Source: Mesodorylaimus sp. YZB2_4
Lineage: Eukaryota > Nematoda > Enoplea > Dorylaimida > Dorylaimidae
Assembly: GCA_030248295.1 (NCBI GenBank)
Contig: JASANH010000542.1
Location: forward strand, 310,001 to 374,000
DNA: 64,000 nucleotides
Reading direction: 5' to 3'
This document shows positions 11,301-52,600 of the stretch, in pieces. The position numbers and the translations under genes are program-made. The notes beneath the pieces were generated by a model that did no database searches, was not told where the DNA came from, and saw only the letters and a program-made list of their open reading frames with translations. Position 1 is the stretch's first letter. Each line of letters starts with the position of its first letter.

Positions 11301-14300
11301 TCTCGCTGGTGGCGTGGTGACGAGTAACACCGGGACCGTGTCCAACGATGCCCTATTATCCCACGATTACATGATATCCACTAATTCCACTGCACGTGGC
11401 CATCTGTCAGTCAGCACCGACTATCCAGGCAGCACACCACCCTCCAGTGGGGGATCGTCCAATGGCAGCGCCGGCACAGCCAATGGATTGATCATAAATC
11501 AAGGCCACGAATCCCCCGATGCCAGTAGTGCTGGCAGTGGGAATATGCAAATGTATGTGCACGATGACCGTCGCATGCTCTCCACATCTCGCCTCGAACA
11601 CCCGATGGCCAACGTGACCAGTCGGAGTGGGGGCATGGTGGCTGCCAATGTCGTGGGCAATAGTCTTCGATGTATTCCCGAAGAGAGAGCGGATCATTCA
11701 CGATCGGACGGCAGCACAGCGAGTAGTGGTCGGGCGCAGACTCCGAAAAGCTCCCTAGGCCAGCAGATTAGCAGAAAACCAGTGTACGCATCGGTGGAGA
11801 AAAAAAACAAGTTGTATCAAAGTGGTGAGTCGTGTGCAATGCCCACACTCAATGCGTTGAATAGGGGAGGACTGTCTGGTCAAACAGAAACTTCAGCCGG
11901 GCTGTGGTGGTGTATACTGCACTGCATTTCCACTAAGGCGCTAGAATGAGTCAGATATCCCTATTATGGACCTATCCAAATTGCAACAACCAAAATCATC
12001 TAGATGGAAAATGACTGTGGGGAGTGACTATTGTTACTGCACCCAACAGCTTACGGGCTGGGGCCATTTGGAAAGAAAATTTTTTTCTTCCTTCTGGTTG
12101 ATGTTTCAGCTGCTGGTGCAGTCGCGAGACTTCTGCTTTTTTGCCCCTCCGACTTCGGTCGGTCGCATTCTTTGCCACCCTCCATAGTCACGGGCTGCAC
12201 TGGCTACTCACGATGACGCGTTGGAGTCTCTCTTGGCTACTCAGCTGGCGGTTAGCTTTTCTTGACTAGCAGATTTCCTGAGCATAAGTTATGCCAAGTC
12301 AACTCATTCACAAAGACTTCCATGCCAAATCCTTTCCTGTCCTATAGTACATAGTTCTGTATAATCACGTATGGAACCAGTAGATATCGCAGGGGTGTAA
12401 AGTCCAAGCCACGTCGAAGGAACCTTGGCGAGCGTTCATCTTTGCGCCAACACTTGGAATGAGTCACCTGCAGGACTTTTATGCAACGAGTTCCACGGAT
12501 ATTTGAGTGCTCCTATTTGTTTTTTTTTGAATTTTTTGTGGGTTGGTCCCGCGCCGCCCCAGTTCCCCACGGGACTTCCAACCCGTTTTGCCTATAGCCG
12601 GCCAGCAGTCATGATATGATAAGCGAGGCCGTGAGGTGACCAGCTCTCACGGCAGCGTTCCTCTGCGCGTCTCCACTAGGAGCACCTCCACGCGAGGGCA
12701 TCCTCGACAGGACACCAACTTCCTCGGACGATGGCGGGTGGGCTTTGAACCCTGTTGGTGTTCGACAGCCGAGACTGTCCACTCGTTTGGCTTCCGTCTC
12801 TCCACTTGGAGTACCTCTAGGGTGCCGGGTGAGTCACCCACGGCCTGGCGTGCAAGGTCAGCGAGGGTTTATGGTTCGCAAACCGACCTCCATCACCGGG
12901 GATCGAACCATGGACGAATCCAGCTACTCGCTCCCAATGAGACGAATGCCGAACCGCTGCACCACCGCGGCCGCTGTAAATGCGGGGGTCCCAACAGTTC
13001 CTTAGACCATAATCTTCGACAGCGATTGGCGTACGAGCGGACGCAATGCAGGGCCATACAGTCGTTCATGCAATGCTGGCTAGTAATATTGGCCTGGCAT
13101 TACAAACGCTTGGGCCTCAGCAAGTTCCGACCAGCAGCATGTTCCTTGAATGTTTGAGTTGTAGGACCTGCAAGACCGACTGACTATGCTATTTACTGTG
13201 TGACACAGTGTAAAATGCCAATGAGTGAGGTGTCAGCAGCACTGACTACGGTTTTTAGTGCGCGCATAAATGTTTCAAAATGTTCCAACAAATAAGCCAT
13301 GCGATTGTCTTCGTTGATGCACATCTTTCATGCTCCATTTTCTACAGCCATTGCAAATGGCCATTCCTTGCATGCCGCTAATTGTTAGGTTTACCTGCCA
13401 ACAGCCCCATGCCAGACTGCTTTTTTGCTGCACTGTCCACCACAAAGCACCGTTTTGATTTTGAGAGAACAAAAATCAGCGCGCCGTCATGATTTATCGC
13501 TGATACAGTATTTGTAACACCACAGTGCAAAGTGTACACGTGATATACCCCTTACAGTAACGGACATGGTCACCTTTTGCAGGTCTTTCGTTTTAGATTT
13601 CAATAACACGTCCTCAAATGAGTCGCCTGTGGGCAATCAATCATCATCGACACCCGTCCAAAATGACACTCTGATCAGCCACGTTCGGTCAGTATCAGAA
13701 ATCTATACAGTACCTTCTCACAACGGCAGTGAAGAACAAGACCCCGATGCAGCCTCGATTTCAACCCTGGAAGGAAAGCAGTACTCGCCAACCCAAGAAC
13801 AAATCCGACAAGCCACAATCGTGCGAGCGGATATCCATCACATGGGGTCACCTCATAATCACGCATTATCGCCCCCACCCGTCATCCCATCCCCACCACT
13901 GACCACACCTCCTCCCCCTCCACCACCACCACCACCGCCACCAATCACGAAGAACTATAGTGATGGGCCAGCTCACCACGCTCCACCGCCCCCAAAATCG
14001 AGTGGTTTCATCCCCGCAACGATCGACTGGCAAGTATTTATTCGAGCAGTCGAAAATGATCGATCGCCAATACTAGACGATCGAGATATCGATCGATGGC
14101 GTCGATTGCTGACTGATGACTCGGAAATTCGTTGTCAAATAATAAATGCTAAAACATTGGAAGATTTCGAAAGTATCAGTCACTCGGCCAAGTATGGTCG
14201 CGAATTTTCCCAAGAAAAATGGGCCGTCATTGTTCAGAATCTCGCCCAAGTAGCTTTTATGCGCCGATTAAGTAACATTATCGATACGCAACACGAACAA

Positions 14301-30705: not shown

Positions 30706-33700
30706 TTCTGCTTCTCTTATAAGCTGCCATAAAAAGACTAATGGAGACAATTGTCATGGTGGCATTAAGTGCTGCATAACTTGAGAAACCTAATACTGAT
30801 AGGCAAATGTCATTTTGTCCATTTTTTCCACCCTGATTTTTCGATCTTAATGATTTTGGAATCGAAAAAACGGATTCTTGTTGAGAGATTGCTAAAAATC
30901 AGAACAGTCGTATATGCTAAATTAGATGACTCTAGAATTTTCGACTTACTGTCTGAGTTTTTTGGATCCAAATCCATGACTGTAATTGGATCGGAAGCAA
31001 CATCGATCACTTCGTCCGACTTGGAATCGCCTTGCGTTGAATTTTGCAAACGAAGTCCATTCCATTCTGCTGTTAAAATCGGTGTTTCAGAAGTGAAGGA
31101 AACATTTTTGCTTCTTTTTCCGCGTTGCGGTTCTTGGCATTGTGGTTTCTAAACGAAAAATTTTCTAAAAACAATTTGTTGCAGACTGTAGTAGAAATTT
31201 ACTGGACACTGCTGACCAGGTTCGCGTACGCCGATGGACACCTGACAGTTAAAATATAGGTTTGACTTGTCAGCGTACTAAAAAGAAAACGTAATTTACA
31301 TATTTTTCTCGCCAGATTCGTGATACTAATCTGAAAATGAGTGTTTTTGGGGCAGGGACAGAAAGTTTTTAATCACAAGATTCACCTTCTGAGCGACATA
31401 ATCAATTCTGCCTCCTTTTATACAGGTTTTTCATTGTCTTTCTATGTACTTTCTCAGTCAGTCGAGATCAGAGATTAGTAATCGCTCAATTTTGGGAAGG
31501 TTAAAAGCATACTTATATTTTTAAAGCTGATCGCATCGAGCTATATGTTAATAAATCCTCATTTCCATGGGAGATGTTCAACTCACTTAGCCTGCATCAG
31601 CTCCTTGCAGGGGTGCACAAAATAACATACTGTCAACAAACCACACAGAGTATTGTTGCGTAAAGTTACGAAAACAGCATCTACTTGTAGTAAGTTGCTA
31701 CAAAACAGGCACATTTTACTCGACACAGTAAAAGACCGTCATAGACTGTGTCAATCAAAGAAGTAAAAGTTTGTTATTCGAATAAGCAACGATTGTGGGC
31801 TGGCAGCACTTTCTAATGAGGATGGCACCCGCACCCGTACTATATTGGGCCAGAAAAATCCAGAAGACAAAGACTAATGGTCTAGGCTGGGCATGAATGG
31901 ATAGCTTCCTATTTTTTTGTCTAAAACCCTTACATTGACTTTCTGCTTCATCGCGGCCGCGGTGGTGCAGCGGTTCGACATTCGTCTCCGTTTGCTTGGG
32001 AGCGAGTGGCTGTATTCGTCACAGGTTCGATCCCCACTGACGGAGGTCGGTTTGCAAACTACACACCTTCGCAGGCTGAGGGTGACTCTCCCCGGCTCCG
32101 AGTGCGGAGATGGAAGCCAAATATCTAGACACTTCGACACCGAATCTTGGCTCTCGAACACGGACAGGGTTCACAGCCCACCCGCCATCGTCCAGGATGC
32201 CCTCATGTGGAGGTCCTCCTAGTGAAGACACACATGGACGCTGCTGTGTGTGCTGGCTTTTTTTATAAGGTTTGGCTGCTGGAGGCATAAGCGGGCTTGC
32301 GCCTACAAAAATTTTTTTGAAATTATTATCATGGCTTCGTGTGCGATAAACAGTTTTGTTCTCTCTCTTGATAATTAAAATTTAACAATCGTAAGCGGTT
32401 GAGTGTAAAAGGAGCCCGGGGAGGAGGATTTCTGTTGGAGCAAGTGACGAGGCCAAACGGGTCCTCAAGCAGTCCAGAACCGAAATGCCCCCGCGCGCGC
32501 CCACCCTCGCGGACCCTCCTAAATTACCGTACGCAAACCAAGCAACATATATACTTGCTGGTCACTGAAACATCAAGTCACCTGGTTGGCGAGACAACAG
32601 CGCCTCCAGTGGCGAAAGCGCACACAAGTGCTGTAAACTACACTTTTCGATTCGGTCCAGTTAGGGAGGGGGCGTAATCAAGCGCATATTTTGAGCCCAA
32701 AATATTTGCAAGAATTTTTTGTATATGTATTCGTTGTAAGTCTTGCCTGCAAGAACGTGTACAGAAATGTTTTTAATTATGGAAGCTTAAAAATTAGAAA
32801 TTGTTGTGCGCAAAGAGGAAGTAGAAATTTTTTGGCCTCTATCGGCCACGCTGTTTTTATGAAGACCTAAAATTTACTTTGTAAGGCAGCGATGAGCGAC
32901 GCTCACTCAGCCTATTTTTGAACGGCAACTAGCGATGCTCTGATTATCTGGATTTAGGGACTCAGAGAAACTCGGAAGCCCCAACCCTTGTCGTATGTTG
33001 CTGGACTGAATGGCAGATCCGAGAGCAATGAGTAAGATCTTGAAAAGAAAACTGAATAACAAAGTGCTAAATAATTATCTGGCTAGATCTCTGGCTTTAC
33101 CAAAAAATTATCAGTTAAAATGATTATTTTAAGCAAAACCAGAAAAAACTGAAGTCACCATACCTTGAATACATGAGATTCTTTTCCAGCCATTAAATCT
33201 CCAATATATTCAAGATTTCCAAGTAAATATTTATCTTGAGCGCATCTGAAATTGCACGAAATCTCCCATTTTTTATGACGACTTTAAATCCTTTGATCTT
33301 ACCCGTTCGAGTCAAGCAAAGAAATGTTATTCCCCGATCCATCCTCTACTGTGCAAGAATGCACAATCATGCAAAATGTGTCCACTGGAAGCGAAAAAAG
33401 AGTGCTGATTAGCTGATGACAATAACGAAAAATGCTTTCTTAGCAAATTTGGGAATAATCACTATGTAGTCTAGCTTCGTAGTCACAGTGACATTTCAAA
33501 GGCCAGCTATTCAATACGTCCTTAGCTTTACTCTAATTGAGAAGTCATAAAGCGGGCAATAATTAGCGTTGATACTTTTAACTGGAACTGAAACTGAAAC
33601 TGAATTTCTCGGTAAAAACTGAATTAAACTGTAACTGAAACTTTTTTAATCGTTTAATCCTCACATTTGTGATCTGCTCTCCGCTGTTCGCGCAAAGTTC

Positions 33701-36700
33701 AAGAGAAGAGGAACCGCATCCGAGCGATTGCTGGCTCGACTGCTGCTGACCGCGAGTAGGAAGCATATTTTGCCATCTTTAAAAACCTCTTAGCGGTTGT
33801 AACTGCAAGTGGATCCTCTTGAATTTTCGTTCAGTCATAGACAAAACTTGCCACATTTTTATAATATTGCAGTGGTTCATCAGCTTACTACGTTATCGTC
33901 TGGAAGAGTTTCGCGAGCGAGGCCCATGTTGAACAAAAGTTGATATAATTAAATTAAAAAAATGAAAGAGGGACTATTTAATTTGAATCATTTAATTAAA
34001 AACGACATCTTCAAGTTACATTTTCCTGATCTGAGAGAGCCTTGCCAACTGGCATCGATGACTCTAATTTGTTCCTTGGCAAAGGAAGGTCTCCGCTAAA
34101 TATTAGACCCGTCTTTCCAGCGTCAGCATTGAAAATCTTGCGTATTTTTGAATTCTTATATGGTAAAGAGCCAGTAAAGGGAGAAACTCGCAGGGATTCT
34201 CTGAACTTCGCTTACAGGTTTTGATGTTCAAGCTTGTGTTCCCACCGAGTTTTGGGTTTTTCGATAAAACCCAACAAGGCTGGAAGGTTTCGAAAAAATT
34301 GCTGGAGTTTGGGCCAAGCTCTACTAGCAGTTGGCTAGACAGGCAAAATTTATCGAAATCTAGCATGCAAAAGTGAGATTAAGAAAAGTTTTTTATATAA
34401 ATTTTTGGCCCGAAGCCTGTTTTTGCCAATATCCGGCCAACAGTCAAACATTCTAAGCAGGGCTGTGCAGCGTCCCTCCAGCTGACACAGCAGCTTCCCT
34501 CTGTGTGTCTCCACTAGGAGCACATCCACACGAGGGCCTCCTGGACAGGACACCGACTTCCTGGGTCAATGAAGGGGGCTGGCTTTGAACCCTGTCGGTG
34601 TTCGACTGCCGAGAGTGTCTCCTCGTTTGGCATCCGTCTCTCCGCTCGGAGCACCTCTTGGGTACCGCGTGAGTCACCCACGGCCTGGCGTGCAAGGTCA
34701 GCAAGGGTTTATGGTTCGCAAACCGACCTCCATCACCGGGGATCGAACCCGGGATGAGCCCAGCCACTCGCTCCCAAACCATACAGAGAGACGAATGCCG
34801 AACAGCTGCACCACTGCGGCCGCGTGAAGTAAGAAAAGCGTAGATTTATTGCTCGCCAAGTGTTTAAATCTACACACGAAAATTTTTTGAAAAAGAACCG
34901 AATTATTCAACTATATTCAATTAACTGAAACTTTTGAGATTAAGTGAGACGCTAAAACGGAATCTTTCTCCTAAAACTCTATCAACGCTAGTGATAAGGG
35001 GGTTTCTGAGTCCCAGCACAAAAATAAAGTTCTGATTGTACAGATAAGTTGAATCACCAAACCGCTGTGACATGGTTGAATGCAATATATTTGCAATAAT
35101 CAGCAAGCAAAAATCGGGCTTACCAGCCTCAGTGTCGCACGTCCATTTATGGTAAACCTGATCACCAATTTTCGCAAATTTGACAGGGGCACCGTTCGGA
35201 TTGCCTTCGAGCACTTCGTAACGACAAATCGGCATTGGGACTGTTTGTGTTTGTAGAGATGTGGTGAGCATGCTGAAAGTTAGAGTACTGGTCAAGTTTA
35301 ACGCGGGGAAAAAAATTCTTTTTCTTTCAAAATGACATGGGTAGGAGCCAAAAATTGATGGTTCTGCTTGCTGGTCTGTACGCTGTATTTAGGCGTGCAA
35401 TGTTCAGAAATTTTTTAAAAGGCACGCTGGGGCCGAATTAGCTGCAAGTTGCTCAAGTCAACGCTAGCAAGAAATCAAAGGATGCAGAGCTGGTAAAGTT
35501 TATTAATATAAAGCTTGCTTTTTCAAATCACCGCAGTCTTGTTCTGTTTGAAAAATGGCGCGAGATTTGAATTTGGGCAAAATTTTAAGCGTCAGTGTTG
35601 TTCAGGCTGGAGGTAATAGGCAAGTAATTGGGTGGGGCCTTGTTAACTTTTCCCAGAACAGGTTAACGGCGGTGAAGTAAGTTTTATAAGCAAATAATAC
35701 ACAAAATGACAGTGTCAGAATCAGTGCCTTACCTGACTTCCAATTCTGCAGTGACCGTTTTAACAGCTTCCATATAAAAGCACTGGACCATATAAGCTCG
35801 ATCAACCTACAGTATAAGATTTGGTTCAATTTTTATCAAGTAAGTTTCAAATGCTAACCCACTTTTGTGATCAGTTGTGGATGGAATGAGATAACTACTG
35901 TCACACTGACAAATACTCCTCTTGGGTTTCCCTGAAAGATAAGAAGGATATTCCTCGCCTCCTCTATTTCAACGAAGTTTTGGGTGAATACAGGTCTGTT
36001 GGGTCTGGGATCCATTGAGAATTTCTGCACGTGTTGTGGGGCTCGAGTTCGAGGACGGTCTCTATTTATCAAACGTTTATGAGATCCCTATCGGAGGGTG
36101 GGCTGCCTGAGTGGACGCGTGCATACAGTGCTTCGGTGCTCTACAGGCTTGGGCAAGAAGTCAGCCTATGCGTCCACGAAATGAATAGAAGCCACTCACA
36201 GATCTGGTCCGACGAAGTCCACACGAGGTGAAAGGCAACCTGATTTCAACTTCTTTCTTGCTAGCTTCACTTTCACCAGTGCGGCATCCTGGCTCCCCAT
36301 ATCGACCTTTCACAAAGGCATGCCCCTCGAATGTGTTTCTGGTTTGCCATTTGATACCGATAAACGATTCGCCGCAAGTGATTTCGGGTATTCCTGCAAT
36401 AAAAGAGGTAAAAGTCAGTTACAGGAGAGAATTCAACACAGAAAATACCGAGTTTTTCTGACAAAAAGAGCCTTCAAGCAGAAGTCGACCGAAAAACTTG
36501 TAATGCAGGTTTTTGGGGGAGGGGGGGAACAAAAGCAAGGATAGGAGGAAAATTTGCGGCTAGCCAAAGCAGTAAAAAATGTATGTAACTCTATCTTGGC
36601 TCCCAAATTTGTTGGAGTCATTTCTATTCTACAGTATTTCTATTTTACTCTAGCCGAAGCACATAAATTCGCACTCAAAACAGCAAGTACAAGGGATTCA

Positions 36701-39882: not shown

Positions 39883-42407
39883 TTAATTTACCGCACCATT
39901 ATCGAAAATGTAATCTTGTAATTTTTCTTTAATAAGGTCACTTTCTGAAATATGGCGCTGCCAAAGTGTTTCATTGGTTAAATTTGATTTTAAATTGACA
40001 TGGCGCGCTTCCGACAATAACGCATTCTTTGCAGACTGCTCTGCAGACGTTTTAAGCCAGTCTTTTGGGGTTTTCTTATTTTTTTCTTTTTTTGCTGGAA
40101 AACTTTCCTTTCCTTTCCTTTTAGCACGGGAAAAGTGCATTGTACAATGGCAGCTCTGACCATTGCTCTGGACAAGGCACGGTATACTTTAAATTGAAAA
40201 AGCCGTTCCCTTGATCTTTTTTTTCGGCGACAAGCGCCAAACATAGCCACAATCACATATGGCCATTCCAACGACGACACCTCGTGCCACATTTTAATAG
40301 CGGGCGCAGAACCCCAGTTGAGCTGCGTTTTTAAGTACGATACCATTTCTTCAAGTCGCGGTTTGATCTGACCATCAAGTGCTTTCAGATGTTTTTCGTC
40401 CACAAGAATAATGGCAACTTGACTAAAATTAGGGGGTTCTTGTGCGCTGCGTTCAAATTCAGAATTTAGTTGACGCAGCTTCTTTTCGATATTGACCGCC
40501 GTTTTTTCGACCGCATCAGCGATTGAGCAACAACAGTTAGTTTCTTTTTCCACTTTTTTGCCCTCTATTTTATGGCCAATGGAAACGACACCATAATGTC
40601 TTGCTTCTAGCCCAGGAAATGCTTCATCGAAAATACTTTTTGTACAACGCATCACTTGCGTTAATGTTTGAATTTTCCAAAATTGTGTGTCCTTGAAAGA
40701 GAAAGCGTCTCCCTTATCCGGTGCTCCCTCGAACTCAATCCATCCACGATGCCGATACTCTGTGTATGGATCAATTGCAAGCCAAATCAGTTTCTCGCGG
40801 TGGTTGCCGTAGAAATAAAACATCAGGGTCACAGAAACGACGTACGACAATCTCCAAAAACGATTCGACTCACTGATAGATCGACTATCGAGAGTGTCAT
40901 CAATAAATACAGCGTCAAATTTTTCGAGCGGAATAAGCATCTGCTTAAATGTCGGGTTCAAAACTATGCGATCTATGCCACCTTCGTTTTTTAGAAAAGC
41001 AACTATATCATTGTGTCCTGGCCGACAAGAAAGCATTGGTTTTAAAATTTCCCTTATTTCTTGGTCCTGAAAGAATTCTTTCATGTAAGAATTCCACGAT
41101 TCTACGCGAAAAAGCACAGGATCTTGGCAGCCTGAATCAGTCGCAATTCGCATGTAATGTTCCATGAAACAGTCAGCTGCAAACACAACGACTGATGTTT
41201 TCGCAATTAACAGATCTTGAATTTTTCTCATGATGACAACTGTTTTCCCAGTTCCAGCAGCACCGAAAAGTATTTGTCGATTAGGACCATTGAATGCATT
41301 CATTTGATCAGGTGTGAAGTACAAATATCTTCCATAATTTTCCACAGTTTCCACAGTCCATAATGGTGCTTTTAGAAGATGTTTTCCCACAGTTAATTTA
41401 GATTCGAATGACACTTTCGAACCTGCTGGATTTTGCGCATCCAGTCGTTCGTGTATATCGGATTCCATATCCGTTGCAGAAAAATTTGGTTTAAATAAAT
41501 TTATGGGCCCAGCTTTTTTAAAATTCACAATGCTCCTAAATCCAGTAATTATTGGCACATAGGCTTTGTAAATATCTTCTGGAATCGGATTTTCATCATT
41601 GAGTAGTCTCACCAAAGTTGATTTCATTTGACAAGACTCTTCGCGAAACCATTGCGTAATCCGAAGCAGTTTATTATTGATTCGCTGTTGGTCCTTCTCC
41701 GTCAAGTTTTCCAACCAATTCGAAAATGACTGTTTTTGAAAATTTGGGGTAAAAAGGATTTTTCTCACCTTGTCACTCGGCAGTTCCTTACCGGTGCAGA
41801 TTTCCAATATATTTAGAAATTTTTCACCTCTATTTAATTGCTCAACTCCTTTTTTGTAGCGTTCTGGCAAGGAGCTTTTGCTTTTCTTAAAATCTTTGCT
41901 AAAATCATTACTTTTTACTTCAAAAAGAATTATGCCAATTTTTGGGCCGATTAAAATAAAATCATATTCAGCCAACTGGTTGGTTTGAATGCTGGAAAAA
42001 TTCATATCTGGAAATAATTCGTGGAGATGGTTTTCCAGGCGACTTAAATTTAAGGATTGCACGGCAATAAATGGTGTTTTTAGTTTAATATGAATGCAAT
42101 GCGTAATGGCTTCATAAATAATATATTCGGCGTTGTCGGCTTCTCTCTCTTTTCTCACCCCAAATGCTTTGCCATCTTCATTGCTTTGCACATTTTTTAT
42201 TTCTCCGAAACATTTATTATCGACTTCTGGATTTTTAAAAACGAAAATCTGAGGAATAATATAACTTGCATTTTCGTCCCATTCTGGCCAAAAATTATAT
42301 AAATAAAAATTAGATTGCTCAAAAAAGGTTGGAAATTCTTGACCTGCAGGGCCAATAAATCTACGCGATTTGGGAACAGTTTGAGAAAATGCTGAAGCGG
42401 CCGCCAT
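39883..42407 (-). CDS. NERD-nuclease / SF1 (UvrD-like) helicase protein, intronless, probable 3' frameshift
   Basis: An uninterrupted frame runs from the ATG at 42407 to 39990 (805 codons). Residues 95-200 look like a NERD-type PD-(D/E)XK nuclease: AEYDF (Asp149), IILFEVKSND (Glu163, Lys165) and GVEQLNRG. A superfamily-1 helicase follows: Walker A GAAGTGKT at 382-389, FDAVFIDD at 497-504 in the Walker B position (the usual acidic pair is DE, here DD), LIWLAIDP (540-547), LTQVMRC (582-588), SLEWPYVIV (712-720) and YRALSRAM (742-749). From about residue 757 the frame becomes purely basic, while the neighbouring frame (40140-39883) reads as a normal charged helical tail. This suggests a 1-nt indel near 40105-40140. 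Such fusions are commonest in bacteria and patchy in animals. A role in nucleic-acid processing or defence is inference. Confidence 0.8.
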
Positions 42408-42545: not shown

Positions 42546-43937
42546 AAGGCGAATTTATACTTCACTGCGGGTGAGGGCCGGGCGAAGGTGGCGGACGGGC
42601 GCGGGTCGATTTACATGTTTATACTAGCAGCGGGCACGGGACGGGTGAAGGGCGGGCTGGAGCGAGGGCCGCCCGTAAAGGGTTCTTTGTCAACCCGTCG
42701 ACGGGCCGCTTTGTCTGCAAAAAGCGGGACGACATTTCGTGATGACACAGAATGACTTAGAATTTTTTACTGCTGGAACGTAAGGACTTGTAACTCTGTG
42801 CCGACGACCAGGTGACTCACTGATTGATTATAGTGCAATCTGGCTCACAAAAATTTCCTCCTGTTACGATTTGCTCTTTTTCACAGAAAATAGCATTGCT
42901 AAACTGGCTGAATACACATTCCTCAATTTTAATAACAAATCACAAACAACACATGATGTAAAAATACGATTAAGAATATGTAAATTCCGACTTTAAACAG
43001 AAAAACCAAACTGCTGCTGACATCACTGACGATGAGTTACCGTTTTTATTCTGGAAAGTGACACAAGAAAATACTTCGACTGACATTGCATGAGAAGCGG
43101 AGATACAATGTCTCCCCTGTCAGGGAGTAAAACTTCGCGGGAGCCGCTTGTGTCCATGCGGTCGAATGGCCTGTCAAACGCTGGATAGAGTCTAAAAAAT
43201 AGCACGATTTGATTACGATGAGTGTCAAAGCGGAAAATCGTTCTTCTCGAGAAGTCAGGGGATTGAATGAAGCTCATCTTTCAGTTTTCAGACGCATATT
43301 AAGGACTGTTACAGATCCCAGCCCAACTTTATGCCCAATGAAACCATCAGTATTTCACGAAAAAGAATTCCCTTACTTTGTAATCTGTCGTAATGATGAA
43401 AATGACGAAAGCAAGTGGCAGCGAGACATCCAGGAAGGTTTTCTGGGCGAAATCTTAGAAAATACAATAAAAATAAGTCATAGAGATATCACTCCCAATC
43501 GTCTTGTCAGAGCGCGCGCTGGCCAGAAAGTTAGGTCTGAAGAAAGGTGGAAATAAAATACTTTGCGAACGCTGACTAAATTTTCCATTCGATATTCGAA
43601 TTCTACGATAAAAACTGTGCAAGAAACTCTTATCTTAAAAATTTTCAGTCGAAATGGCGAAAAGTAGTTCAGAGGAGAATACCAACGGGTCGAGTTGCAA
43701 TAAGAACGAAACTTATTGCCATTTCGCCCGCAAACGGGCCGACCGCGCGCGGGTGATATTGGTGACGTTTATACTTTTTTCGGCTACCGACGGGCTGGTT
43801 TGTAGCGTTTATACTGCCAGAGGGCGCGGGTCGACGGGTGACGGGCCAAGCCAGGGCTACAGTAAGCTCGAAACTTACTTTTACCCCTGTGCGGCCCTCG
43901 CCCAGCCCTCACCCGCAGTGAAGTATAAATTCGCCTT
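42546..43937. mobile_element. TIR-bounded 1.4-kb DNA element
   Basis: 42546 onward begins AAGGCGAATTTATACTTCAC. The same sequence, inverted, ends at 43937. About 40 bp match almost perfectly, then G-rich related blocks follow (GGGCGCGGGTCGA, GACGGGTGACGGG). The motif TTTATACT recurs near each end. Flanks are GCGTA and CAGTA, so no clear target-site duplication. Inside are ATG-initiated frames at 43218-43556 and from 43654. Neither is a recognisable transposase, so the element is probably non-autonomous. Confidence 0.7.
43218..43556 (+). CDS. Hypothetical 112-aa ORF inside the TIR element
   Basis: ATG at 43218, stop ending at 43556. The second half (FPYFVICRNDENDESKWQRD and following) has a charged, protein-like composition, but no family is recognised. 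An acceptor-like site and another ATG frame follow at 43654. The frame could be a transposase remnant or captured host sequence. Support is composition only. Confidence 0.25.
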   Translation: MSVKAENRSSREVRGLNEAHLSVFRRILRTVTDPSPTLCPMKPSVFHEKEFPYFVICRNDENDESKWQRDIQEGFLGEILENTIKISHRDITPNRLVRARAGQKVRSEERWK

Positions 43938-52324: not shown

Positions 52325-52600
52325 CGTTTACTGTATTACAGAAGCCAAACGAGTACCTAGCCTCGGCTATGACACACCGACTGGGCTCACAGCCCGCCCG
52401 TCATCGTCTAAGGAAGTTAGTTTCCACTCCAGAATACCCTCGTGTGAAGGTGCTCCTATTGGAGACGCCAGAAGGAACCTGAGAGCTGGTCGCCTAACTG
52501 CCTTGGTTATCCATGACTGCTAGTCAGCAGCAGACGAAATGGGTTGGAAGTAACGTGGGGGGGGGGGGGGGGGGGGGGGAAATGAGGCAAAGCGGGGCTT
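52325..52600 (+). mobile_element. Family-A SINE, 5'-truncated, with poly-G expansion
   Basis: Lacks the tRNA head. It begins near GAAGCCAAACGAGTACCTAG and runs through CACCCGCCATCG-like sequence, GGTGCTCCTATTGGAGACGC and GACTGCTAGTCAGCAG. The 3' end, where other copies read CCCGTGGGGAACTGGGG, is replaced by a 23-G run at 52557-52579. Confidence 0.75.
52557..52579 (+). repeat. Poly-G tract (23 G)
   Basis: Longest homopolymer in the window. It arises inside the 3' region of a family-A SINE. Confidence 0.95.

Follow-up and report, generated by a model that had tools for sequence, protein, structure and literature searches.

NERD domains and UvrD-like helicases recur in bacterial defence systems. 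An excerpt of one account lists NERD among the domains of the defence systems Mokosh type I and Nhi-like, and reports that the Gabija helicase GajB binds or senses DNA termini and promotes GajA activity (PMC10952713), while an excerpt of a second describes a NERD-type nuclease in a rare YprA-linked system (PMC12458937). Bacterial NERD-UvrD helicases (PADLOC C3a187, annotated as 'nuclease-related domain-containing DEAD/DEAH box helicase') have the same domain order as a protein encoded in the window, by which we mean the whole stretch of nematode DNA analysed here (64,000 nucleotides). Among the open-licence papers searched, we recognised none, by title and abstract, that deals with a NERD-helicase family of a nematode.

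The window protein is encoded on the minus strand, as are all of its features given below, by a single-exon coding sequence of 805 codons at 39990..42407, which agrees with the original prediction of one long exon; 'single-exon' and 'intronless' refer here to the coding frame only. When the window was shuffled 30 times with a Markov model, no frame exceeded 216 amino acids, and chance was therefore rejected as the origin of the 805-residue frame. Pfam identified a NERD nuclease domain (PF08378) at residues 121-218 (41754..42047), which scored 25.4 bits (gathering score, 22.1) and has aligned residues D149, E163 and K165. The helicase half fell below every Pfam cut-off (UvrD-helicase, 13.7 bits against 23), the best sub-threshold matches being ResIII and TrwB_AAD_bind ahead of UvrD, and the C-terminal 256 residues gave no Pfam match. 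To a profile of nine bacterial NERD-helicases, plasmid sequences found with a bait sequence, hhalign aligned residues 360-760 (40128..41330) at 92% (E 6.6e-7), collinear through motifs I to VI in order; an unrelated exon of the window scored 1.3%, and the last 256 residues alone reached 13% probability. The fusion of a NERD domain and an SF1 helicase-like core in one gene, as originally predicted, is thus borne out by a Pfam match above the gathering score and a collinear profile alignment.

Alignment with these relatives and locus-by-locus reading placed Walker A (GAAGTGKT, residues 382-389, 41241..41264), motif II (IDDTLD, residues 502-507, 40887..40904, in place of the canonical D-E-x-Q) and motif VI (YRALSRA, residues 742-748, 40164..40184). 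All 11 aligned sequences, ten bacterial proteins and the window protein, share D149, E163, K165 and Walker A. The motif II glutamate and the motif V glycine are present in all ten bacterial sequences and both are replaced in the window protein, so the predicted DD at Walker B is real. Walker A, the motif VI arginine and the order of motifs are those of SF1, and D-E-x-Q at motif II is absent from clade A, the family clade to which the window protein belongs.

Against PADLOC-DB, the window protein matched NERD+UvrD (2.9e-6) and RTasNERD-Hel (5.7e-6), each in two stretches; the helicase half alone still matched both (0.00055 and 0.016), and the NERD half alone matched no model. A NERD-helicase model was the top match for the window protein and for nine of ten further members, a ranking biased because PADLOC-DB holds defence proteins, and the family's matches lie mainly around Walker A. 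Searches of NCBIfam and PHROGs were uninformative. Pfam NERD reached its cut-off in one of ten other members (L036), scored below it in four and was absent at E 0.05 in five; C37 and C204 exceeded the cut-off in a genome search with the NERD model. The UvrD-helicase cut-off was reached by none of the ten, the best scoring 22.2 bits.

The gene span had been predicted as 39883..42407, of which the main frame accounts for 39990-42407, and reaching 39883 entails a shift into the -1 frame. The main-frame codon score goes negative in the 120-base interval 40250-40130, in which the third frame scores +2.6 for that one interval, and is negative from the interval starting at 40115, and the -1-frame score is positive from about 40160/40115 to 39883. 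This movement of the coding signal makes 39883 a sensible end point. The -1-frame tail (39883..40188, with a stop at 39883), where the coding signal continues for the last ~80 codons, lies outside the conserved domains and has no Pfam match. The switch sits in an A-rich stretch past motif VI and may reflect a mutation, a short intron, frameshifting or an assembly error. Close to the shift, A-AAA-AAG occurs in the zero frame at 40086-40092. Programmed -1 frameshifting was rejected as a claim because folding of the RNA downstream gave no notable structure (z -1.46, matched or bettered in 19 of 200 shuffles; z -0.93, in 34 of 200).

The surroundings of the gene are those of a nematode-like genome. 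The window also holds a cuticlin C-terminal domain exon (34924-35388), a bHLH gene and a DUF229 gene, two of whose exons are separated by GT-AG sites identified by visual inspection. The genome gave 27 matches to TTR-52, a family that matched none of 14 control genomes and that to our knowledge is nematode-specific. Despite these TTR-52 and cuticlin domains, the canonical nematode SL1 leader had no exact match in 145 Mb. The contig that carries the window (C103) is 378,677 bases long, paralogues lie on contigs of up to 2.45 Mb, and in GC3 the gene resembles the DUF229 gene and intron-bearing neighbours; contamination, already considered unlikely in the original prediction, was rejected on these grounds. 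A ~1.4-kb element with 54-nt inverted terminal repeats (87% complementary) occupies 42546-43937, 139 bases upstream of the gene's ATG, and two plus-strand frames in or across it matched no Pfam family at E 0.05. A dispersed repeat family, with copies 68-83% identical, is found at 12586-12974, 31946-32256, 34421-34829 and 52338-52560.

The window gene belongs to a large family, which answers the question of copy number that the original prediction had raised. Searches of the window's own genome (145,146,385 bases in 1067 contigs) returned 35 matches with the window protein, 49 with the paralogue C71 and two with the NERD model alone, one of these two in a new place (C37). Grouped by hand, the matches from these three queries (two members and the NERD model) fall into at least 25 places distributed over 21 contigs. 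One frame runs from near the N-terminus through motif VI in 13 of the 25, comprising eleven clade-A copies (C103, C71, C501a, C48, C49, C276, C27a, C6, C33, C27b and C140) and two clade-B copies (C104 and C37), with C276 and C27b counted as open though they have no ATG ahead of the conserved start. The other 12 are broken or interrupted, partial, cut or redundant. Two copies stand in tandem on C501, and C528, which a contig end truncates, is 99.6% identical to C48 and may be its haplotype duplicate. The two halves of C99 and C204 are separated by ~0.9 kb and ~2 kb more DNA than expected, which we take to be insertions, with introns also possible. A 520-base palindrome with arms 90% identical was observed between the paralogue halves at C204 (L033, 4517-5033). 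Compared whole, members are about 23-45% identical; identity to the window protein is 24-31% in clade A and 18% for C104 of clade B, with C71 and C501a 45% identical to each other and C104 and C37 41-43%.

We read the motifs of each locus through a clade-A profile, in which the C501 row merges two copies, C204 is counted once, the near-copy C528 is included beside C48, and C9 and C2c are without the motif II region. In 19 of 20 clade-A loci, D is the second residue of motif II (A in C33), and none of the 20 has the usual motif II Gln. At motif V, the second residue is S in 19 of 20 loci and G in C33, and the preceding Lys is found in none. The nuclease residues are mostly kept: the NERD D is present in all 19 covered loci and the E and K in 17, the exceptions being C140 and C2c. 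Walker A retains its Lys in 23 of 23 covered rows, although Ala or Ser replaces its Thr in C114, C204 and C140; at motif IV, Gln stands in place of Arg in C9 and C68 reads ambiguously; and the motif VI Arg is present in 19 of 20, with Lys in C33. Clade B keeps DE at motif II (IDEVQ in C37, IDE in C104). The sharing of DD by 19 of 20 clade-A loci, together with nuclease residues that are mostly retained, indicates that DD is the shared state of one clade. We therefore rejected damage or decay as the source of DD; the original prediction had suggested that DD could impair ATP hydrolysis. These motifs may point to altered ATP use in clade A rather than lost function, and the DD motif could also be compatible with normal ATP hydrolysis.

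Codon-position comparisons were made on protein-guided alignments, which favour positions 1 and 2. The window gene and C71 are identical at 0.42, 0.51 and 0.33 of first, second and third positions, and the order 2 > 1 > 3 holds in all 16 pairs listed from 46 computed, with third-position identity of 0.27-0.41. Old pairs are saturated for dN/dS. The young pair C48/C528 (L027/L038) differs by four synonymous and five non-synonymous changes, and these differences show no sign of purifying selection.

Taken together, we favour, with moderate confidence, the reading that the gene is a member of an old, chromosomally resident, single-exon family of nuclease-SF1 proteins that would act on foreign or damaged nucleic acid under the control of ATP. 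The observed part of this reading comprises the copy number (as a lower bound), open frames at deep divergence, the codon-position pattern, the conserved catalytic residues and, shared within clade A, a motif II with DD and without Gln and a likewise altered motif V. In the mechanism that we propose, each protein joins an N-terminal NERD nuclease of the PD-(D/E)XK type to a UvrD-like SF1 core; the core would bind nucleic acid and ATP, with slow turnover or switch-like behaviour, and its ATP state would gate cleavage of non-self or damaged nucleic acid by NERD. The family would evolve by birth and death in the manner of immune or genome-surveillance genes, and its copy number, divergence and mixture of open and broken copies appear to resemble those of immune gene families. 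The reading is weakened because 12 of the 25 places are broken, partial or redundant, because C140 and C2c are without the NERD E and K, and because the frame of the window copy switches.

A separate matter is where the family came from, for which the original prediction had named horizontal transfer. It is plausible, though we would not bet on it, that a bacterial NERD-UvrD gene entered a nematode ancestor long ago and then expanded and diverged, and this account of origin can hold together with the reading that we favour. It is in keeping with the uninterrupted coding frames of the 13 open places, with the occurrence of the NERD-UvrD architecture on bacterial plasmids, and with the control genomes, where the NERD model matched three of 14, all three bacteria. 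However, a tree of 22 of 23 sequences (A_C72 was dropped as partial, and C276 and other broken copies were outside the set) separated 12 nematode from 10 bacterial rows by one branch (100/100), so the window family is not nested among the bacterial NERD-helicases; the program warns of long branches meeting, and the bacterial sample is small (n = 10). The clade-A profile likewise ranked clade B (71 and 64 bits) ahead of all bacterial rows, none of which exceeded 45 bits. Composition also goes against the proposal, since the GC3 of 12 members ranges from 0.24 to 0.47, which leaves no common foreign composition.

With tblastn, the window protein had no match at E 0.1 in 50,697 phage and 72,556 plasmid records, and three matches at E 4-6 when the limit was E 10; C71 and C37 had no match in plasmids at E 0.01. 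No relative was found in viral contigs, which were scanned four times, once with alignment A1 and 600 stretches. A scan of genome contigs with the window protein alone returned 19 stretches, none related, and a second genome-contig scan returned at least one relative, a Dehalococcoidia NERD-helicase that is 22% identical. Six NERD-only proteins were also retrieved from plasmids. On plasmids L009 and L010, the NERD-helicase gene directly follows a gene with a DUF1998 domain, with a DarT-like gene next in L009, and these surroundings look like a defence island. The separation of the family from the ten bacterial NERD-helicases makes recent transfer unlikely; an older transfer is neither shown nor refuted by the searches and the tree, and the origin may be ancient transfer or ancient vertical descent.

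The activity that we propose could instead serve genome maintenance, the protein being an enzyme of repair or recombination and not of defence. Profile A1, built from the nine bacterial rows and the window protein, matches the structures of UvrD, PcrA, Rep and FBH1, which speaks for such an enzyme. Yet at least 25 strongly diverged places, many of them broken, would be unusual for a core repair gene, and we consider this alternative doubtful; defence-type surveillance of nucleic acid probably ranks first and genome maintenance second.

It is improbable that the family is an ageing mobile element or virus-derived, with copies scattered by transposition. The dispersal of single-exon frames over 21 contigs, the 12 broken, partial or redundant places and the inverted-repeat element directly upstream of the window gene would fit such a history, but a comparison of the flanks of 21 loci revealed no similarity beyond the genes except for repeats that are scattered and lie at differing distances. 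Among the inverted pairs listed for nine loci (five of 20 pairs for L036), only two weak ones bracket a gene, of 20 nt at 80% in L026 and 18 nt at 83% in L039, and they are unlike each other and found nowhere else. C48/C528 is the sole near-identical pair seen, and the viral-contig scans gave no relative. The lack of shared flanks and of strong bounding repeats makes an active mobile element unlikely, and the selfish element once suggested is not supported as an active one.

Retroposition of the copies from one another, also among the original explanations, is just as improbable: dispersed single-exon frames with unshared flanks would fit it, but no locus is demonstrated to have introns (C99 and C204 hold extra DNA) and none of 12 stops is followed within 400 bases by an A-run of at least nine, both weak points for old copies, as very old tails would have decayed. 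A pyrimidine-AG lies just before the ATG in three of 12 copies read by eye (L032, L036 and L040), which makes a 5' UTR intron or trans-splicing possible.

The old resident family that we favour may be compared with several known systems. Bacterial NERD-UvrD helicases share the NERD D/E-x-K, Walker A and the motif IV and VI arginines with the window protein at 15-18% identity, but they are shorter (537-622 residues, against 739-989 for the open nematode copies) and, unlike the window protein, carry DE at motif II and G at motif V in all ten cases. RTasNERD-Hel is the best or second match for nine of 11 members scanned, and Nhi was matched once, by L025; both sets of matches are partial and lie mainly around Walker A. 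Gabija has an SF1 core in common with the family, in that GajB structures match profile A1 and the GajB model of PADLOC-DB matches the window protein at 0.0024, but its nuclease is a separate protein whereas NERD is fused in the window protein, and Gabija is not known to have a NERD domain.

Among animal proteins, the Schlafen group III members SLFN5, 11 and 14 also have an SF1 helicase part. We tentatively suggest that the nematode proteins form a family of nucleic-acid immunity, in which NERD and an SF1 core with remade motifs II and V could work as an ATP-gated sensor in a Schlafen-like role; such a family, of about two dozen loci, would be built from the same parts as the bacterial NERD-helicase defence proteins. 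A large animal family with retained nuclease residues and a shared non-canonical ATPase motif would add to the defence-type proteins found in both bacteria and animals. The family also offers 11 open clade-A copies in which the effect of DD could be studied, with the two DE-bearing clade-B copies as an internal control. Pfam detected no Schlafen core nuclease domain in the window protein at E values up to 1, and its SLFN-g3_helicase model scores below the cut-off in L032 and L039. SLFN11 itself matches profile A1, with its nine bacterial rows and one nematode row, at 6.8e-22.
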